Positions 4,373-41,786 of a stretch of 64,000 nt of DNA are shown in pieces. The first letter of the stretch is position 1; each line of letters starts with the position of its first letter. This DNA comes from Archangium lipolyticum (GTDB lineage: Bacteria > Myxococcota > Myxococcia > Myxococcales > Myxococcaceae). Position numbers and translations under genes: made by a program. A model generated the notes under the pieces. That model made no database searches and had not been told where the DNA came from. It saw only the letters and a list, made by a program, of their open reading frames with translations. The stretch covers positions 248,001-312,000 of the forward strand of contig NZ_JANKBZ010000007.1 in NCBI RefSeq assembly GCF_024623785.1. The letters are read 5' to 3'.

Positions 4373-6307
4373 ATGGGCACACCCATGGCCACACACTCCC
4401 GCTACTCGCACCCGTTCCTTCCCGTCACCCGCGCCGACATGCAGGCCCGGGGTTGGGAGCAGCTCGACATCATCATCGTCTCCGGGGACGCGTACGTGGA
4501 CCATCCCGCGTTCGGCCCGGTGCTCATTGCCCGCTTCCTCGAGGGCCGTGGCTTCAAGGTGGGCATCATCGCCCAGCCGGACTGGCACTCGGCCGAGCCC
4601 TTCAAGGCCCTCGGCAAGCCGAGGCTCTTCTTCGGGGTGGCCGCCGGCAACCTCGACTCGATGCTCAACCGGCTCACCGCGCAGAAGAAGAACCGCTCGG
4701 AGGACCAGTACAGCCCGGGCGGGCGCACCAACTGCCGGCCGGACCGCGCCACCATCGTCTACGCCCAGCGCTGCCGCGAGGCGTACCCGGACGTGCCCAT
4801 CGTCCTCGGGGGCATCGAGGCCTCGCTGCGGCGCATCGCGCACTACGACTACTGGAGCGACAAGGTGCGCCGCTCCATCCTCATGGACGCCAAGGCGGAC
4901 CTGCTCGTCTTCGGCATGGGGGAGCGCCCCGTCTGGGAGATCGCCGACCGCATGCGCCGGGGCGAGAAGGTGGAGGACATCCGAGACGTGCGCGGCACCG
5001 CGTACATCATCAACGACGCGGAGATGAAGGCGCACGAGGCGGACCCGGCGAAGCGGGCCGCGGACCGCAAGGTGGTGGTGTTGCCCTCGTACGAGGAGGT
5101 GGTGGAGGACAAGCTGGCCTTCGCCCGCATGTCGCGCGACTTCCAGATGGAGACCAACCCCGGCAACGGGCGGCCCCTGGCGCAGCGGCACGGCAACCGC
5201 GCCGTCTACTTCAACCCGCCGGCGCAGCCGCTGGATGACGGCGAGGCGCGCAGCGACACGGTGGCCATGGACGAGCTGTACGACCTGTCCTTCAACCGTG
5301 TCCCGCACCCCATGTACAAGGAGCGCATCCCGGCCTACGAGACGGTGAAGCACTCCATCGTGCTGATGCGCGGGTGCTTCGGCGGCTGCTCCTTCTGCTC
5401 CATCACCGAGCACGAGGGCCGCGTCATCCAGAGCCGCAGCGCGGAGAGCGTGTTGCGCGAGGTGCGGGCCCTGCGGCGCATGGGGGACTTCCGCGGCACC
5501 ATCACGGACCTCGGTGGCCCCACGGCCAACATGTACAAGCTCAAGTGCAAGAGCCCGGACATCGAGAGCAAGTGCCGCAAGCTCTCGTGCGTGCACCCCG
5601 GCGTTTGCGAGAACCTCCAGACGGACCACGGGCCGCTCATCGACCTGATGAAGCAGGTGCGCGAGGAGCCGGGCGTCAAGCACGTCTTCATCGCCAGCGG
5701 TGTGCGCTACGACCTGGCCGAGCGCTCGCCCGAGTACGTGAAGGAGCTCGCCGCGCACCACGTGGGCGGTCAGCTCTCGGTGGCGCCCGAGCACGTGTCG
5801 CCCCGGGTGCTGGAGAAGATGAAGAAGCCCGGCATCGAGAGCTTCGAGCGCTTCCAGAACATGTTCGCCTGTGCCAGCGAGGAGGCCGGCAAGGAGCAGT
5901 ACGACATCCCGTACTTCATCAGCGGCCACCCGGGTTCCACACTCGAGGACATGGTGGAGCTGGCGCTGTGGCTGAAGAAGAACGGCAAGCGCCCGCGCCA
6001 GGTGCAGGATTTCATCCCCACGCCCATGGCGATGGCCACGGCCATGTACTACTCGGGGTACGACCCCTTGAAGATGGAGCCCGTCTATACGGCCAAGGGG
6101 TTGAGGGAGAAGCGGCTGCAGAAGGCGCTGCTGCTCTACTGGAACCCCGAGCACTGGCCGCTGGCGCGCGAGGCGTTGACGCTGGCGGGCCGGGAGGATC
6201 TCATCGGCCGAGGGCCGCAGGCGCTGGTGCCTCCGGAGACCGCCGCCGAGGCCTCACGCCGCAAGCAGACCGAGGCCCGCGAGCGCCCAGAGCGCCGGAC
6301 GCGCTGA
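4373..6307 (+). CDS. ygiQ: YgiQ family radical SAM protein
   Basis: A 644-residue protein closely matching the YgiQ family from end to end. The N-terminal UPF0313 region reads [17 protein letters not shown] and VGIIAQPDW, followed by [20 protein letters not shown]. The radical SAM core carries CFGGCSFC, with Cys335, Cys339 and Cys342 (C-x3-C-x2-C) expected to bind the catalytic [4Fe-4S] cluster. Further conserved cysteines ([19 protein letters not shown]) lie downstream. The reaction performed by YgiQ is not established. Two ATGs, 4373 and 4385, share a purine-rich region at about 4364-4372; spacing favours the second, so the start is uncertain by four codons. A short Arg/Glu-rich tail after residue 620 is variable in the family. 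Confidence 0.93.
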
Positions 6308-6395
6308 GGGGCGCCTGGTCCCTCGCCCGCCTGTCCTCCGGACACCTGGACTGGAGGCCCAGGCGGTTACCGCGGCGCATCACCACCTTGGGGGA

Positions 6396-6845
6396 ATGAC
6401 GGACCTCTTCCAGCTCTTCGCGGTGGCCGCGGTGGTGATGGGAATCTCCCAGACCATCGCCAAGGAGCGCATCTTCGCGCCCCTGCGTGAGCGTCTGGGC
6501 GGCAAGGAGACGTGGTTCGGCTACCTGGTCTCCTGCCCCTACTGCGTCTCGCACTATGTGGCCTTCGTCCTGGTCCCGATCACGGGCACCTATCCCATCC
6601 GCGTGGTGGTGGGGGGCTGGCTGGGGAGCGTGCTGAGCTGGTTCCTCTCCTCCATCTTCGTCGCCGTCATCGCGGCCTTCTTCCGGGTGCTCTTCTGGTT
6701 CGTGGACGAGTCTCAGGGCCTGGTGCGCAGGCGCCAGCGGACGGAGGAGGAGGAGATCGCCACCAAGCGCGTCATTCGCAAGCAGGTGGAGCAGCAGCTT
6801 CCTCCCGAGGAGCGCACCGGACCCACGCCACCGGTCCCGCACTGA
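6396..6845 (+). CDS. Small membrane protein, DUF1360-like
   Basis: A 149-residue protein with an N-terminal hydrophobic helix, the sequence SCPYCVSHY (a CxxC pair inside or next to a membrane segment), two further hydrophobic segments (VVVGGWLGSVLSWFLSSIF and VAVIAAFFRVLFWFV) and a charged cytoplasmic tail rich in Arg and Glu. The combination of the N-terminal helix, the IFAPLRERLGG segment and the CPYC motif matches the DUF1360 family of unknown function. It begins 88 bases after the YgiQ-like gene on the same strand, so co-transcription is possible. No enzymatic role can be assigned. Confidence 0.7.
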   Translation: MTDLFQLFAVAAVVMGISQTIAKERIFAPLRERLGGKETWFGYLVSCPYCVSHYVAFVLVPITGTYPIRVVVGGWLGSVLSWFLSSIFVAVIAAFFRVLFWFVDESQGLVRRRQRTEEEEIATKRVIRKQVEQQLPPEERTGPTPPVPH

Positions 6846-6888
6846 GGCGGCGGTTGCCGCCCCGGGAGGTGGCGGTTAGGTCTGCTCC

Positions 6889-7197
6889 ATGTCCTCGCGC
6901 TCCAGGTCCCCGGACACGCCCCTCGCCATCGAAGTGGAAATGCAGTCGGAGAAGGCCTCCGCGCTCCGGCGGGTGGCTTCCCGGCTGGAGGCCCTGCTGG
7001 TGGAACTGGCGGAGACGGAGAAGGCCCTGTGGGGGTTGAGCGGACAGGCGAGGGAGCGCATCGTGGCCCGTCACCGCGAGCTGCGCGCGGAGGCGGAGAA
7101 GCAGCGCTGGTACCTCATCGTCCAGCGCGAGGCCATGGGCCTGCGGCACCACGGCGACATCTACGAGCTGTACCGCCTCCCCGGCCCCGTGGAGTAG
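6889..7197 (+). CDS. Small helical hypothetical protein
   Basis: A 102-residue protein of unrecognised family. After a short polar N-terminus, residues about 15-75 are heptad-like and rich in Ala, Leu, Glu and Arg, predicting a coiled-coil or helical hairpin. The end is more mixed (RHHGDIYELYRLPGPVE). It has no signal peptide or membrane segment. It follows the DUF1360-like gene by 43 bases on the same strand and stops 10 bases before the stop of the convergent cheR gene. Codon use is like its neighbours, which supports a real gene. Confidence 0.6.
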   Translation: MSSRSRSPDTPLAIEVEMQSEKASALRRVASRLEALLVELAETEKALWGLSGQARERIVARHRELRAEAEKQRWYLIVQREAMGLRHHGDIYELYRLPGPVE

Positions 7198-7207
7198 GGC
7201 AGGGGGC

Positions 7208-8062
7208 TCAGGCGCGGCGCCGGTACAGGCGCTCCTGGGCATCCACCTCGTCGTAGTCGTTCTCCAGCACCGTGTGGCGCAGCGTCTCGCCGCGCCCCAG
7301 GGCGAGGATGCCGAAGCGCCGCAGGGACTGGTGCAGCAGCCGGTGCACGCGCTCCTGCAGCTGCGTGCCGAAGTAGATGAGCACGTTGCGGCACAGGACG
7401 ACGTTGAACTCGTTGAAGGTGCCGTCGCTCACCAGGTTGTGCTGCGCGAAGACGATGTTCTTGCGCAGCGGGGCCTTGAAAATGGCGTGGTCGTAGTTGG
7501 CCGTGTAGTAGTCGCTGAAGGCCGCCGAGCCCCCGGCCCGCAGGTAGTTGGCGGTGTACTCGCGCATGTGCTCCAGCGGGAAGATGCCCGACTTGGCCCG
7601 CTCCACCACGGACGCGTTCATGTCCGTGGCGTAGATGCGGCTGCGCTCGTACAGGCCCGCCTCCATGAGGAGGATGGCCAGTGAGTACACCTCTTCCCCC
7701 GTCGAGCACCCCGCGTGCCAGATGCGCACGAAGGGGGCCGAGAAGAGGTGCGGCACCACCTTCTCCCGGAAGGCCGCGAAGAAGCTCGGGTCGCGGAACA
7801 TGGTGGTGGTGTTCACCGACAGGTGCTGCAGCAACAACTCCATCTTCGAGGAGTCGTGCAGCACCTGCGCCTGAAGCGCGGAGATGGTCTCCAGCTTCTG
7901 GGCGTGCACCATGTTCCACACCCGCCGCTTCAGGGACGCACGGGCGTAACCACGGAAGTCCAGTCCGTAGCGCCGCATGATCCCCTCGAGGAGCAGATCC
8001 AACTCGATCTCCTCGAGGGTCACCTCGCCCACCATCACCTCACGCGCCGCGCTCTCGCTCAT
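7208..8062 (-). CDS. cheR: CheR-type protein-glutamate O-methyltransferase
   Basis: A 284-residue CheR family enzyme that uses S-adenosylmethionine to methylate glutamate side chains of chemoreceptors or related coiled-coil proteins. The N-terminal helical domain (GLDFRGYARASLKRRV) and the linker with the typical TTMFRDPSFF are followed by the Rossmann domain motifs IWHAGCSTGEEVYSLA, IYATDMN and VLCRNVLIYF. It is the last gene of a minus-strand operon, 51 bases after the poly-HAMP kinase. Neither a chemoreceptor nor CheB is present here, so its natural substrate may be the neighbouring kinase; that is inference. Confidence 0.92.
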   Translation of the reverse strand: MSESAAREVMVGEVTLEEIELDLLLEGIMRRYGLDFRGYARASLKRRVWNMVHAQKLETISALQAQVLHDSSKMELLLQHLSVNTTTMFRDPSFFAAFREKVVPHLFSAPFVRIWHAGCSTGEEVYSLAILLMEAGLYERSRIYATDMNASVVERAKSGIFPLEHMREYTANYLRAGGSAAFSDYYTANYDHAIFKAPLRKNIVFAQHNLVSDGTFNEFNVVLCRNVLIYFGTQLQERVHRLLHQSLRRFGILALGRGETLRHTVLENDYDEVDAQERLYRRRA

Positions 8063-8113: not shown

Positions 8114-14527
<6,414 letters not shown>

Positions 14528-27195: not shown

Positions 27196-27201
27196 GAGGA
27201 A

Positions 27202-27232
27202 CCGGGTGGTCCCGTTCCAACGGGCCACCCGG
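27202..27232. terminator. Strong hairpin between convergent genes
   Basis: Left arm CCGGGTGGTCCCGTT (27202-27216), loop CC, right arm AACGGGCCACCCGG (27219-27232): a near-perfect stem with one bulged base. It lies between the stop of the putative anti-sigma gene (27195) and the stop of the convergent diterpene cyclase gene (27247), so it can terminate both. No T-tract is present. Confidence 0.72.
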
Positions 27233-27246
27233 GATGTCCCAGGGAC

Positions 27247-28938
27247 TCAGCGGAGCGTCATCGCGCCGTACATCGCATCCAGCACGGCCGAGGCGACCTG
27301 GAAACGGGGCGCGTACATGTTCTTGGAGATCCACAGCGCCGGCAGCTCGACTTGCGGCCGTTGCAGCTCCTGGACGAGGAAGCGGAGGGAGCCCCGGATG
27401 AGCTCCCGGACCTTCTCCGTCTCGTTGGGCAGGAGCTCCGGTTCGTACTTCAGCAGGGTGGCCAGACCGGACGCGACATAGGCGGTCTCCTCCAGGGTGG
27501 GCTCCTGTTGCCCCCAGCCGCCCTGCTTCGTCCGGTTCTCCACCTCGGTCAGCATCTGCCGCACCCGCTCCGGGTAGGTGAAGAGGATGGAGCGCAGGCT
27601 CAGCCACTTCTGCACGCCGTAGGTCCACGTGGCGTGCCACTTGTCGTGGTTGAGCTGATCGAAGTCGAAGTCCTGGGGATCCAACTGCTCCAGCAGGCTG
27701 CGGAGGATCTCCTGGTTGACGGGCTGGCTGGTGAAGGCCTCCTCGAACGTGCCCGCGGCCAGGTCCATGGACATGACCGAGTGGAGCAGGGCGGAGGGGG
27801 ACGGGTGGAGCTCGTACGGGTAGCAGAAGAAGGTGCCGTTCTTGCGCTGGAACCGTTGGAGGCTGGCGCTCGTCATGGGCTTGAGGTCGCGCACCCCCGC
27901 CTTGACGAGCACGGAGTAGAGGGCAAACGCGACCGCGGTGTCATCCAGGTCCGGCAGGTCGGCGTTGTTCGTGTCCCACGAGACGCGGCCCAGCTCGTCG
28001 ATGTTCGTCTCCTGGTAGATGCGCGTCAGCAGGGGAAGGATGGTCTCGTCCCGGACCAGATCGAAGATGTTGCCGGACACCAGCCAGGGGCGCACGTTCC
28101 ACAGCCGCCGCGAGGTGACGATGGGGTGCAGGTTGGGGAAGCCCGTCCGCTGGTAGTCCTCGAAGGTGTCGCGCAGGTACTGGTAGAGGCCGCTGGGGAC
28201 CTCGCGCCCCTGCTCGGTGAGCAGGAGGATGGTGGCGGCGGTGGCGGACGGAGACAGGCCGATGGCCCCATTGGGCAGCATCGTCCGCGGGAGCTGGCCC
28301 ACGTCATCGACGAGCCCGGGAGTGAGGGCAGCGAGCTCGGCCGTGTAGCTCAGCGTGCTGCCCGGATCGAACAGCGGGCCCAGCTGCCGCAGCTTGCCCA
28401 GCTTCATGTCTCCCTTGCGATCCAACGTCTCGATGAACTCGCGGGACCGGGCGCTGAGCGGGAAGGTGCACTGGTTGCGCTCCAGCCACTTGAGCAGCTT
28501 GGGGGCCACGAGCTCGAAGGCCACCGTGTCATGGTGGGGGTAGTCGTGACAGGCGATGATCAGCGCCTCGACGCGGGCCTCCAGCTCCCGGTGCCTGGGG
28601 AGCGGCTGGCCCACGCGCACCAGCGCCATGGTGGCCGCCAGGGTGTCCACGAGCGCCGAGTGCGGCATGTAGCTGGGATCTCCCCAGCCGCCATCGGCGT
28701 GCTGCGCGTCGAGCAGCAGGGCGAGGTTCTTCCGCTTGTCCTCTTCGTTGAAGAAGTCGCAGCAGAGCACCCAGGCCAGGTCGTAGATGGAGAGGTTCCA
28801 GTCACCCCTGTCCGAGAGCAGCGCCTGGAAGTGATGCCGGATGTGGGGACGCAATGCCGCCGCATCCGGAGCACGGGCCGCGTCCTTGAGAATGCGCAGC
28901 GAGGCGCAGGAAGGGGTCTGAGAGCCTGAAACGAGCAT
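27247..28938 (-). CDS. Class II diterpene cyclase (copalyl diphosphate synthase-like)
   Basis: A 563-residue protein of the prenyltransferase/squalene-cyclase alpha-barrel fold. The catalytic class II motif DXDD is DLDD at residues 330-333, in LPDLDDTAVAF; its middle Asp protonates the terminal double bond of geranylgeranyl diphosphate. QW-type repeats (DGGWGDPSY near the N-terminus, QGGWGQQ near the C-terminus) mark the two alpha-barrel domains. The length matches bacterial ent-copalyl and tuberculosinyl diphosphate synthases. There is no DDxxD motif, so no class I activity. The product stereochemistry cannot be read from sequence. No class I synthase, GGPP synthase or P450 adjoins it; the nearest P450 is 12 kb away. 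The 232 bases upstream are visibly AT-richer than the surroundings, which may mark a promoter or acquired DNA. Confidence 0.85.
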   Translation of the reverse strand: MLVSGSQTPSCASLRILKDAARAPDAAALRPHIRHHFQALLSDRGDWNLSIYDLAWVLCCDFFNEEDKRKNLALLLDAQHADGGWGDPSYMPHSALVDTLAATMALVRVGQPLPRHRELEARVEALIIACHDYPHHDTVAFELVAPKLLKWLERNQCTFPLSARSREFIETLDRKGDMKLGKLRQLGPLFDPGSTLSYTAELAALTPGLVDDVGQLPRTMLPNGAIGLSPSATAATILLLTEQGREVPSGLYQYLRDTFEDYQRTGFPNLHPIVTSRRLWNVRPWLVSGNIFDLVRDETILPLLTRIYQETNIDELGRVSWDTNNADLPDLDDTAVAFALYSVLVKAGVRDLKPMTSASLQRFQRKNGTFFCYPYELHPSPSALLHSVMSMDLAAGTFEEAFTSQPVNQEILRSLLEQLDPQDFDFDQLNHDKWHATWTYGVQKWLSLRSILFTYPERVRQMLTEVENRTKQGGWGQQEPTLEETAYVASGLATLLKYEPELLPNETEKVRELIRGSLRFLVQELQRPQVELPALWISKNMYAPRFQVASAVLDAMYGAMTLR

Positions 28939-29170
28939 GCCGGCCGCCTTGCAGTGGGGTTACCACATCATGGGTGAGGTCCCGCATACTCTCCTCGGAG
29001 GTAGGCCCGCAGTAAAGAAGGCAACATCATATTTCGGCTTGATTGAAATCGTGTCGGACACGGAAAGCCGGATGTCTATGATTAAGGGTTGCTCTTCAGG
29101 GCGGTGTTTGCGGTTCCCATGACCCGTGAGGCAGAGCGCCTGCCCCACGGTCGAGGCGGGATGGGGCTGG

Positions 29171-30355
29171 CTACAGGACGTCCGAGAGGTTGCGGGCCAT
29201 GGTCCAACCGTCGTGATAGACGGTGCCCACCTGCGTGATGGTGTCACTGCGATACAGACCCACCTTCAGGTAATTGACCATCCCGGAGTATTGGGTGGCG
29301 ATGTAGCGCTTGGGCAGAACGAGCTTGCCGTTGTGGTACAGCTCGACGAAGCCGACGCTCGGGTCGGGCGACCATTTCACATGGAGGATGAAGTCCTGCC
29401 ACTGTGAGCGAACCAACGGGGTCTTCCACACGATGACGCCAGGATCGCCGCCGATGTTCAGCCGTATCTCCTCGCTGTAGACGTAGAACTCCACTGGCGG
29501 TGAGCCGCTGCCGCCCTCGTGGTGCCACTGGGTGAAGAGCTGCCAGGTCTTCACACTCGGGAAGTCCGAGGCGAACATCGTGCTGAACTTGTAGTAGTAC
29601 TCCGAGCCCGTCGGCTCGCGGGTCATCCTCACCAGCTCGTTGCGGTTGCCACTGGCGTTGATGGGATCATCGCCCTGGCGCACCGTGGCCTTGAGGGCGT
29701 AGCGGCCCTGGCGCAGCGGCGAGGACACCACCTGCAGCCGGTCCGCGCTGACCATCTGCGCGCGGGTCCACTGGGAGTGGTCGCCCGTCTCGAAGTCGCC
29801 GCGCCACACCACGCCAGAGCTGGTGATGGACGTCCCGCATGCGCGGACCTCGGCGATGCTCGCCCAGTCATTCACGGTGTTGCCTTTGAAGTAGATGCGC
29901 AGGCGGCGCGCGGTTCGCGCGGCGAAGGAGTACGTCTCCGCCGCCGTCGTCGTGCCGCTGCTCTTGCCGGTGTAGACCTGGGTGTAGCTCATCCCGTCCG
30001 TGGAGACGTGCAGGGTGAAGTCATTGATGCGCTGATCTCCCTGATGCCAGGCGATGGCCGCGCCCGAGACGGAGCGTTCGGCGCCCAGGTCGAAGTCGAT
30101 CCACGAATCCCTGCCAAGGTTGCTCCAGCGCGTATCGAGCCGATCATCGAGCGTGTTGGCCGGCACGTTGCCATCATTTCCGCTGGCGATCACCGAGATG
30201 ACGGAGAGCTGCGAGCAGTTCTGCGTGGTCAGCGCCGCGGTGGCTGTCTCCAACGTCTGGGAGGGTCCCTCGATGGCTTCTTCGGTATCGGGCGCTCCGC
30301 AAGCAGCGACGCCGAGGATGAGAAATGTTCCAGCCAGGAGAAGGGTTTTCTTCAC
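29171..30355 (-). CDS. Lipoprotein with discoidin and polysaccharide-lyase domains
   Basis: A 394-residue exported lipoprotein. The GTG at 30355 (preceded by GGGAG) gives a signal peptide ending GVAAC, with lipid-modified Cys19. Residues about 45-165 look like an F5/8 type C (discoidin) carbohydrate-binding domain: NTLDDRLDTRWSN, WIDFDLGAERSVSGAAIAWH, ARRLRIYFKGNT and IAEVRACG. Residues about 175-394 fit the heparinase-I/glucuronan-lyase-like polysaccharide lyase fold (FETGDHSQW, RNELVRM, KTWQLFTQWH, WQDFILHVKWSPD, VELYHNGKLVL). It likely binds and cleaves an acidic polysaccharide on the cell surface. The substrate is unknown. A longer frame exists upstream but has no export signal, so the GTG start is preferred. 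Confidence 0.78.
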   Translation of the reverse strand: MKKTLLLAGTFLILGVAACGAPDTEEAIEGPSQTLETATAALTTQNCSQLSVISVIASGNDGNVPANTLDDRLDTRWSNLGRDSWIDFDLGAERSVSGAAIAWHQGDQRINDFTLHVSTDGMSYTQVYTGKSSGTTTAAETYSFAARTARRLRIYFKGNTVNDWASIAEVRACGTSITSSGVVWRGDFETGDHSQWTRAQMVSADRLQVVSSPLRQGRYALKATVRQGDDPINASGNRNELVRMTREPTGSEYYYKFSTMFASDFPSVKTWQLFTQWHHEGGSGSPPVEFYVYSEEIRLNIGGDPGVIVWKTPLVRSQWQDFILHVKWSPDPSVGFVELYHNGKLVLPKRYIATQYSGMVNYLKVGLYRSDTITQVGTVYHDGWTMARNLSDVL

Positions 30356-30783
30356 GTAGGGGGCTCCCGAGAAGAGTTGAAGACAGACAGGGAAATGCCG
30401 ATCCGCGTGGGGCGGCCGGTATGAGATGTTGGACTTTGTCGATACAGCCCTCCCGTTGCGCCAATCCGGGCTCATCGCCCTGGCGTTCGGAGAGGTCTTG
30501 CATGTGCTGTGAGTCGTGAGCTCCTGCTCGATGACGGTGCGCTCGGTCGTCCGACCGGTCTGCCCGAGCATCCATCAAATATATTTTGCACTCAACACAG
30601 GACCCCGACGCCTGCATGCTGGGCAGGTGGACGGACGGAACCTGCTCAATCCATTACACTGTAATTCTACACATCGGTCGTGCATCCCCCGGGGCAAGTG
30701 GGGCGTGAGAGTCATTAGAAGAGCGGCCCAAGCGCGTGGACGGATGGAGTAGGGTCTCCGGGATTGACTCGAAGGAGACCTGA
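30356..30783. other. 428-bp intergenic region with divergent promoters
   Basis: No convincing gene is present; the short frames here have atypical codon use. The region separates two divergent secreted-protein genes. It contains AT-rich patches at about 30570-30600 and 30648-30670, unusual in this G+C-rich window, and a perfect 13-base palindrome at 30653-30665. It is best read as a regulatory region for both neighbours. Confidence 0.6.
30653..30665. promoter_or_regulatory. Perfect palindrome ATTACACTGTAAT (candidate operator)
   Basis: ATTACA and TGTAAT flank a central C as a perfect inverted repeat, about 120 bases upstream of the S46 peptidase start and inside an AT-rich patch. Size and symmetry fit a dimeric repressor site. 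The binding protein is unknown. Confidence 0.4.
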
Positions 30784-40592: not shown

Positions 40593-41786
40593 TCACTCCG
40601 TGTGCGCCACCAGGGGGAGCCGGATGGGGCCTCGGATGATCAGCGAGGAGTTCCACTTCACCTCTCCGTCCCCGGGAGTCAGCCGGACGAAGCGGGCGAG
40701 CAGCTCCTCCAGGGCCACCCGGGTCTCGATCCGAGACAGGTGGGCACCCAGGCAGAAGTGGGCTCCGTAGCCGAAGGGAAGATTCTGCGGGTTGGGGCGA
40801 TCCATGTCGAAGCGATCGGGATCGGGGAAGTGCGCCTCGTCGCGGTTGCCCGAGGCGATCATGAGCAGCAGCCGCGCCCCCTTGGGGATGCGCGCGCCGC
40901 CGAGCTCCACCTCCTGGGTGGTCATCCGCACGATTCCATGCGCCGGGCAGTGCAGACGCAGCGCCTCCTCGACGAAGCGGGGGATGAGCGAGACGTCCGC
41001 GCGCAGCCGGGCCAGCAGCTCCGGCTCCTCCTGCAACCGCATGAGGCTGAGGCTCAGCAGGTGCACGGTGGTCTCCAGCCCCGCGACGAGGAGCAGGAAC
41101 ATGAAGCCCATCAGCTCCGTCTCCGTCAGCGACTCGCCATCCACCTGGGCCCGCAGCAGATCGCTGAGCAAATCCTCACGGGGCTCCTTGCGGCGGGCCT
41201 CCAGCACCTCGGCGAAGTACTGCCGGGCCTCGTTCACCGTGGCGCGCATCTGCTCGTGCTTCGCGGTGTCGTTGGGGCCGATGCTGGTGAAGTGGGTGAT
41301 GACCTCCACCCACTGCCTGAAGCGCGGATGCAGGGAGGCGGGCAGGCCAGCCATCTCCCCGAGGACGGCCAGGGGGATGCGGAAGGAGAAGGCCTCCACG
41401 AAGTCGATGGACTGGCCCGGGGTCACCGCGGCGACGGCCTCCTTCGCGAGCGCGCGGATGCGCGGCTCCATCCGGCTCAGCATGGAGTGGCCGAAGGCGC
41501 GGCTGACGAGTGCCCGCAGCCGGGTGTGCTCCGGAGGATCCATGACGAGCATGGAGTCGGCGAGCGGGTAGTCGGGTATCCACGCCGGGCGGTAGGTCTG
41601 CCGGATGCCCTCCGAGGAGAAGACCTGGGGGTTCTTCATCACCGTGATGAGGTCGTCGTAGCGCGAGACGGCCCAGAACCCCGCCGGGTCCACCTGGCTC
41701 ACGGGCGCGTTGCGGCGCAGCTCGGCGTAGTAGGGGTAGGGATTGGCCCGCACCTCGGGTGCGAGCAGGTTGATTCGGCTGCTCAT
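40593..41786 (-). CDS. Cytochrome P450
   Basis: A 397-residue soluble bacterial P450. The I-helix oxygen-activation motif is LLVAGLETTVH, the K-helix ExxR is EEALRL, and the heme-binding loop is FGYGAHFCLGAHLSR with the proximal Cys345. The normal length and absence of a membrane anchor fit a class I bacterial P450 that needs a separate ferredoxin and reductase, which are not seen here. The substrate is unknown; such enzymes act on fatty acids, terpenes or polyketides. It is divergent from the uvrA-type gene, with 186 bases between start codons, and upstream of the protease gene. Confidence 0.95.
   Translation of the reverse strand: MSSRINLLAPEVRANPYPYYAELRRNAPVSQVDPAGFWAVSRYDDLITVMKNPQVFSSEGIRQTYRPAWIPDYPLADSMLVMDPPEHTRLRALVSRAFGHSMLSRMEPRIRALAKEAVAAVTPGQSIDFVEAFSFRIPLAVLGEMAGLPASLHPRFRQWVEVITHFTSIGPNDTAKHEQMRATVNEARQYFAEVLEARRKEPREDLLSDLLRAQVDGESLTETELMGFMFLLLVAGLETTVHLLSLSLMRLQEEPELLARLRADVSLIPRFVEEALRLHCPAHGIVRMTTQEVELGGARIPKGARLLLMIASGNRDEAHFPDPDRFDMDRPNPQNLPFGYGAHFCLGAHLSRIETRVALEELLARFVRLTPGDGEVKWNSSLIIRGPIRLPLVAHTE

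Follow-up and report, generated by a model that had tools for sequence, protein, structure and literature searches.

A probable stand-alone class II diterpene cyclase in Archangium lipolyticum, from a small, isolated clade

Introduction

According to PMC9814783, few bacterial class II cyclases had been characterised by 2022, covering three diterpene skeletons; PtmT2 (5bp8), an ent-copalyl diphosphate synthase, belongs to the platensimycin/platencin pathway, and the role of its base Asp is described there. Other enzymes of this kind are Tpn2 (7xkx), a clerodienyl diphosphate synthase, and Rv3377c (6vpt), a halimadienyl (tuberculosinyl) diphosphate synthase. In the organism group considered here, the same family is represented by other Archangium copies and, possibly, by sora8 and sora12 of the sorangiadenosine cluster. 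The latter appear in the tables of PMC7321100 as "eudesmadiene transferases" of 518 and 509 aa, and table 3 of that paper counts two type II cyclases; their length and neighbours in these tables suggest that they may be class II cyclases.

A preliminary description of a 64,000-nucleotide stretch (the window) of the genome of Archangium lipolyticum, a myxobacterium from soil, proposed a class II diterpene cyclase (DTC) gene at 27247..28938, on the (-) strand. Among enzymes of solved structure, its product resembles Rv3377c most, both in sequence and in fold, and shares with it the acid Asp, the His (H341), the Lys, the equivalent of Tyr479 (Y542), and a nonacidic residue at position 475 (538 in the window protein). 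However, the two are only 22-24% identical, DLDD stands against DCDT, Tyr198 is aligned with a Phe, and no transferase-like Pfam match exists among the ten neighbours of the window cyclase. The likeness to PtmT2 embraces the two-barrel fold (Z 32.3), the DxDD, the Lys, the His, and the metal motif, but the identity is 22% and the base Asp502 is replaced by Ser538. Tpn2 shares the fold (Z 31.7), the D-xxxx-E metal motif, and a neutral residue (Gly485, Ser538 in the window protein) in place of the base Asp; it differs in having His180 (position inferred from the passages of PMC9814783) where the window protein has Tyr198, with 20-21% identity. Lastly, Archangium has other class II copies, L027 and L165 being the two that belong to this same genome. 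Their identity to the window protein amounts to 24-27%, and their neighbourhoods contain genes of class I, P450, HAD, or chemoreceptor-like type; in the tree, L027 and L165 fall together with the rhizobial gibberellin CPS, apart from the clade of the window protein.

Results

The Cyclase Gene and Its Predicted Structure

The open reading frame at 27247-28938 (-) is intact, starts with ATG, and encodes 563 aa; its GC3 (0.93) is similar to that of the neighbouring genes. When the protein was compared with PDB sequences using phmmer, the top match was Rv3377c (E 6.1e-13, residues 49-556), far beyond chance, followed by labda-7,13E-dienyl-PP synthase (9b99) and abietadiene synthase (3s9v), and all of the five best matches were diterpene enzymes. 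Scores against general profiles remained below the cut-offs, both for Pfam SQHop_cyclase_C (PF13243; 13.8 bits versus a curated 26.1) and for NCBIfam squalene_cyclas (18.7 versus 322.7), and none of the PHROGs profiles was matched. A 61-codon frame overlaps the gene in another frame, starting at 28987 (-), 49 bases upstream of the cyclase ATG, and is preceded by GAGGAG; both this start and the GAGGAG site are kept in G006, another genome of the genus.

The AlphaFold model, built on a 73-row alignment, reached a pLDDT of 93.3 and a pTM of 0.94, only residues 1-7 falling below 50. Fold comparison by Foldseek and VIA-align again returned 6vpt as the best match (Z 36.1, rmsd 2.6, 471 residues aligned), followed by PtmT2 (Z 32.3), Tpn2 (Z 31.7), and the copalyl-PP cyclase domain of a fungal enzyme (9q3i, Z 30.7). 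Plant DTCs scored between 26.8 and 29.0, with the exception of the Grindelia enzyme 9b99 (20.8), while drimenyl-PP synthase (23.0 at best) and squalene-hopene cyclase (22.9) came lower. The model has the beta-gamma double alpha-barrel fold, since 6vpt, 5bp8, and 7xkx cover 462-471 of its residues with Z 31.7-36.1. On the basis of homology and predicted fold, the product of this gene is very probably a class II DTC. Two solved structures from Archangium gephyra (8paj, Z 23.7) and Cystobacter fuscus (8pak, Z 23.6), named "squalene-hopene cyclases" and about 345 residues long, matched over 294 residues, showing that a class II cyclase of another, shorter type exists in these bacteria.

Active-Site Residues

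Residue positions were transferred from the phmmer alignments and from three multiple alignments (A1, A3, and the 73-row A4), and residue roles were taken from the pertinent passages of PMC9814783 and PMC11795633. The DLDD general-acid motif (aa 330-333; 27940..27951, (-) strand), read from the translation and the A4 columns, conforms to DxDD; its central D332 is Asp in 73/73 rows, while D330 and D333 are kept in 71/73 and 53/73, respectively. The D-xxxx-E motif proposed in PMC9814783 for metal/diphosphate binding corresponds to D137-TVAF-E142 (28513..28530, (-) strand), whose first column is loosely conserved (Asp in 17/73 rows, Glu in 25, Ala in 22) and whose last one is Glu in 61/73. In DKWH (aa 432-435; 27634..27645, (-) strand), where W434 is present, K433 is found in all 73 rows and matches Tpn2 K383, to which the same source assigns a role in diphosphate binding. 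H386, aligned with Rv3377c H341, is His in 58/73 rows and Arg in 15/73; we infer that it is the equivalent of Tpn2 H342, i.e., of the His activating the acid Asp. The window protein thus possesses the diphosphate/metal residues (D-xxxx-E, Lys) as well as the putative Asp-activating His. The class II assignment, the DLDD motif, and the alpha-barrel repeats of the preliminary description are therefore in agreement with the reading frame, the homology, the model, and its fold matches.

A different picture emerges from the residues that terminate the reaction. According to PMC11795633, the catalytic base for ent-copalyl formation is a His-Asn pair. In the window protein, Asn269 is present but H263 is replaced by Y198, so that this gibberellin-type pair is incomplete; Y198 also stands where the CPS of the R. 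tropici gibberellin operon has His (column composition: Phe 35, His 22, Tyr 9 of 73), and the window protein has PNL versus PNV in that enzyme. Likewise, the base Asp of PtmT2 (D502), which precedes the conserved tyrosine (Tpn2 Y489) by four residues, is replaced by S538 in a column that contains Gly in 52, Asp in 6, Ser in 5, and Glu in 5 of 73 rows. All five Ser538 rows also have Tyr198, and they form three separate groups (the window protein with its Chloroflexi relative HyVt-442; L053 with L073; L074). Abietadiene synthase has a Tyr at the position of Y198 and a normal CPP product; that Tyr is paired with the base His, which is L270 here, and the adjacent H271 might represent an alternative base. 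As for the effect of Y198, the AtCPS variant H263Y makes ent-kolavenyl-PP (PMC11795633, section 8), while Tpn2 makes a clerodane with a His at the matching position, and its authors state that the plant rule is not transferable to bacteria (passages of PMC9814783). Both Y542, equivalent to Tyr479, and the non-basic S538 fit the halimadienyl type of Rv3377c; Y542 is not diagnostic of this type, since that Tyr is kept in 67/73 rows. The term "copalyl-type" that had been applied to this enzyme finds no support in view of the replacement of both the AtCPS and the PtmT2 base residues (Y198 for H263, S538 for D502), which favours, with modest confidence, a rearranged (clerodane/halimane) or water-captured bicyclic diphosphate as the product.

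Relatives and Phylogeny

Matches at 1e-5 were found in 11 out of 96 genomes of the family, but close orthologues are harbored by only three of them, i.e., the window genome (G000), G006 (95% identity), and G031 (65%), the next best match being 31%. The same three were again the only close ones among the 6 genomes matched at 1e-10 in a set of 195 genomes of the phylum. A wider contig search disclosed 326 confirmed relatives; the best 80 of these include one more close relative (51%), from the single Chloroflexi MAG HyVt-442, for which a binning error is possible, and the next one reaches 29%. The HyVt-442 protein had no Pfam match whatever. An earlier contig scan with three orthologues had returned no relative; both contig scans may omit genomes near the window's own.

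Within the best 80 loci, L099 was dropped, having no full reading frame, and L077, L082, L101, L115, L119, L120, and L123 were left out of A4. The first tree was constructed without L077, L101, L119, and L123, and the second one also without L043, L089, L114, and L115; Rv3377c, PtmT2, and Tpn2 themselves are not part of either tree. Two Archangium-genus genomes (G000 and G006), one genome of the same family (G031), and HyVt-442 form a four-member clade, which is fully supported in both trees, its stem measuring 2.38 changes per site in the first and 2.64 in the second. In the first tree, the clade was weakly joined by two further rows (support 34); after their removal for the second tree, it still stands apart. 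Over the aligned columns of A4, none of the 71 rows outside the clade exceeds 27.6% identity to the window protein, and the clade departs from the other rows at 23 otherwise conserved columns. As far as these sequences can tell, the clade is a small branch within a known enzyme family, and a deeply isolated one.

No match to the cyclase was found in the phage search, nor any relative in viral contigs. Plasmids yielded 49 records, all below 60% identity (the 20 listed ones at 23.9-25.9%), and a plasmid search with a G080 paralogue yielded 137 records, likewise all below 60%. In the open-licence literature, the titles and abstract openings of the matches listed mentioned neither a DTC of this clade nor one characterised from Archangium.

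In HyVt-442, the orthologous cyclase gene (L044:5015-6712) is overlapped by four bases by a deoxynucleoside kinase gene (PF01712; L044:4344-5018). A nucleoside-kinase link was considered and set aside, since kinase relatives occur in 92/96 family genomes, which makes the co-occurrence of the two genes uninformative.

Genomic Context and Acquisition

The cyclase gene faces two convergent neighbours, one encoding an ECF sigma factor and the other a 95-aa protein that has no Pfam match; the upstream neighbour, which has the same orientation as the cyclase gene, is a polysaccharide lyase gene with an F5/8 domain. In G006, the gene order is identical from the PALP gene to the lyase, and the S46 peptidase gene was not seen. 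In three other genomes of the genus (G005, G003, and G002), the place of the cyclase between the 95-aa gene and the lyase is taken by a thioredoxin-like gene; this gene matches Pfam AhpC-TSA in G005, whereas the G003 and G002 copies were judged by sequence likeness. The lyase of G003 is short, and the more distant markers are separated by other DNA in both G003 and G002. No trace of a cyclase was detected by tblastn in these three slots. For G004, G031, G033, and G034, the 16 kb that were read did not include the slot, and G032 was without the marker; these five were not counted. The block standing in place of the thioredoxin-like gene spans 27215..29174 (no strand assigned), with approximate edges (27199-27214 and 29168-29175). 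Since the slot holds a thioredoxin-like gene in three same-genus genomes, a gain by replacement in the G000/G006 lineage would be the simplest reading of this comparison.

The acquisition suggested in the preliminary description is thus sustained by the slot comparison, but not by the AT-rich upstream DNA to which it had appealed. The 232 bp intergenic stretch upstream of the cyclase (28939..29170, no strand assigned), a presumed promoter region that can be aligned in G006, has 59.5% GC versus 69.3% for the window; however, the gap at 30572-30783, beyond the lyase gene, is lower still (56.6%), and G005 and G002 keep the lyase gene without the cyclase. Base composition is neutral on acquisition, speaking neither for nor against it.

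The G031 copy has neighbours unrelated to those in G000. Its flank has two matches in G000, each 1.0-1.2 kb long and 85-86% identical (a cupin-type gene stretch, L026:12507-13628), with scattered shorter matches in the 6 genomes searched, in which an empty site for this copy was not found. A recent transfer between the G000 and G031 lineages is not supported, since the cyclase has a dS of 0.593, while the values for three neighbour genes are lower (0.339-0.492).

The cyclase gene is under purifying selection, its dN/dS being 0.197 between G000 and G006 (0.086-0.489 for six neighbour genes) and 0.468 between G000 and G031.

Other Terpenoid Genes in the Genome

Pfam found nothing terpenoid in the ten neighbouring ORFs, and neither class I (PF19086) nor prenyl-synthase (PF00348) domains occur on the 408 kb contig harboring the window (C7), in keeping with the earlier remark that no such gene adjoins the cyclase. 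The genome search for class I partners that had been suggested with it revealed four PF19086 domains, all on other contigs (two on C3, one each on C4 and C1), and the six PF00348 domains lie on C44, C3, C1, C3, C1, and C9. The two C3 class I domains belong to one 774-aa frame, the layout of geosmin synthase. Two candidate partners were rejected: besides G000 and G006, the C4 class I gene also occurs in G004, G005, G033, and G034 (6/44 genomes drawn, G031 not being among the 44), and nothing ties the P450 gene at 40593-41786, about 12 kb away, to the cyclase.

A class II gene is clustered with class I, P450, and MCP-domain genes on C1 (L165) and another one lies on C25 (L027), so that, with the window gene, the genome contains at least three class II genes of DTC type, the window copy being the odd one out. 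Of the two halves of one refuting condition named beforehand, a terpene cluster elsewhere with its own class II enzyme does exist (L165), whereas nothing shows that the window copy is silent.

Some features of these and related loci may be recorded. The C25 cyclase gene is directly adjoined by a HAD-type hydrolase gene (L027:8373-9032), a possible phosphatase partner. In the paralogous cyclases L027:9041-10600 and L033:9038-10579, DxDD is replaced by DGDL and DGDI, respectively. In several genomes of Archangium and its relatives, proteins of about 600-650 aa adjoin class II genes (L027:6527-8365 and L165:7743-9614, with relatives likewise beside class II genes in L028, L029, L033, L035, L079, and L084); both those tested contain an MCP signalling domain (PF00015), and their size and place recall the sora11 "sensory transducer" in the tables of PMC7321100. 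A pairing of terpenoid and chemoreceptor genes at class II loci would be unusual. The 518-aa class II cyclase gene L034:9051-10607 lies near MetH-like (1171 aa, 4390-7905) and MetE-like (363 aa, 12494-13585) genes, so called from length and sequence, in the layout given for the sorangiadenosine cluster in the same tables. Finally, a 997-aa ORF of C1 (L167:8135-11128, at about 480-483 kb) appears to be a three-domain fusion, in which a squalene/phytoene synthase domain (45-288) is combined with two stretches of polyprenyl synthetase type.

Discussion

The homology, the predicted fold, the complete set of acid-initiation and diphosphate-binding residues, the purifying selection, and the orphan position together make it probable, with good confidence, that the product of this gene is a class II diterpene cyclase, active and stand-alone, with geranylgeranyl diphosphate (GGPP) as its substrate. 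The enzyme would bind GGPP, probably supplied by one of the genome's own prenyl synthases; D332 would protonate its terminal alkene, with a decalin cation forming in the cavity that lies between the two alpha-barrels. As neither copalyl-type base is present (Y198, S538), hydride/methyl shifts might precede the quenching of this cation, or water might capture it, and the resulting diphosphate would be of clerodane, halimane, or hydroxylabdane type; it could be finished by an enzyme encoded elsewhere, be it a phosphatase, a transferase, or an unlinked class I synthase. The gene itself would have reached the G000/G006 lineage by replacing the thioredoxin-like gene.

As regards the product, the active-site comparison gives a non-copalyl one about an even chance, and an ordinary copalyl diphosphate synthase (of any stereoisomer) using another base, e.g., Tyr198/His271 or Ser538 with water, is a substantial though lesser possibility. 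Several characterised bacterial DTCs are CPP synthases (passages of PMC9814783), abietadiene synthase, which also has a Tyr where the window protein has Y198, makes CPP, and the Asn of the PNV-type pair persists in PNL; on the other hand, the window protein has neither the His of the gibberellin type nor that of the abietadiene type (L270 here), nor the Asp of the PtmT2 type (S538). The departure of the clade at 23 otherwise conserved columns implies that the reaction could differ more than assumed.

It is unlikely that farnesyl diphosphate (drimenyl-type) or a longer chain is cyclised instead of GGPP. Drimenyl-PP synthase belongs to the same fold family, but DTC folds are closer to the model (Z 26.8-36.1, bar 20.8 for 9b99, versus 23.0 at most), although fold alone does not fix chain length, and the five best sequence matches are diterpene enzymes. 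A silent, decaying remnant of a lost cluster, which the lack of partner genes among the neighbours and the close orthologues in only 3/96 family genomes might recall, is very unlikely in view of the open frame in 4/4 clade members, the catalytic residues kept, and the dN/dS of 0.20. Returning to an active GGPP cyclase, a more speculative and rather doubtful extension is that the clade might represent a separate functional subfamily, making a rearranged or new bicyclic diterpenyl diphosphate that would bypass a class I synthase and be hydrolysed or joined to another molecule (e.g., a nucleoside).

What appears new here, from the sequence comparisons, is an isolated four-member clade with altered base residues and an apparent replacement gain at a thioredoxin-like slot. 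Since the clade falls below the Pfam cut-off, mining that relies on that profile would overlook it, and its unusual base residues provide a directly testable prediction on product control. In Archangium, the window cyclase looks like the gain of a single terpene cyclase gene at a defined slot.
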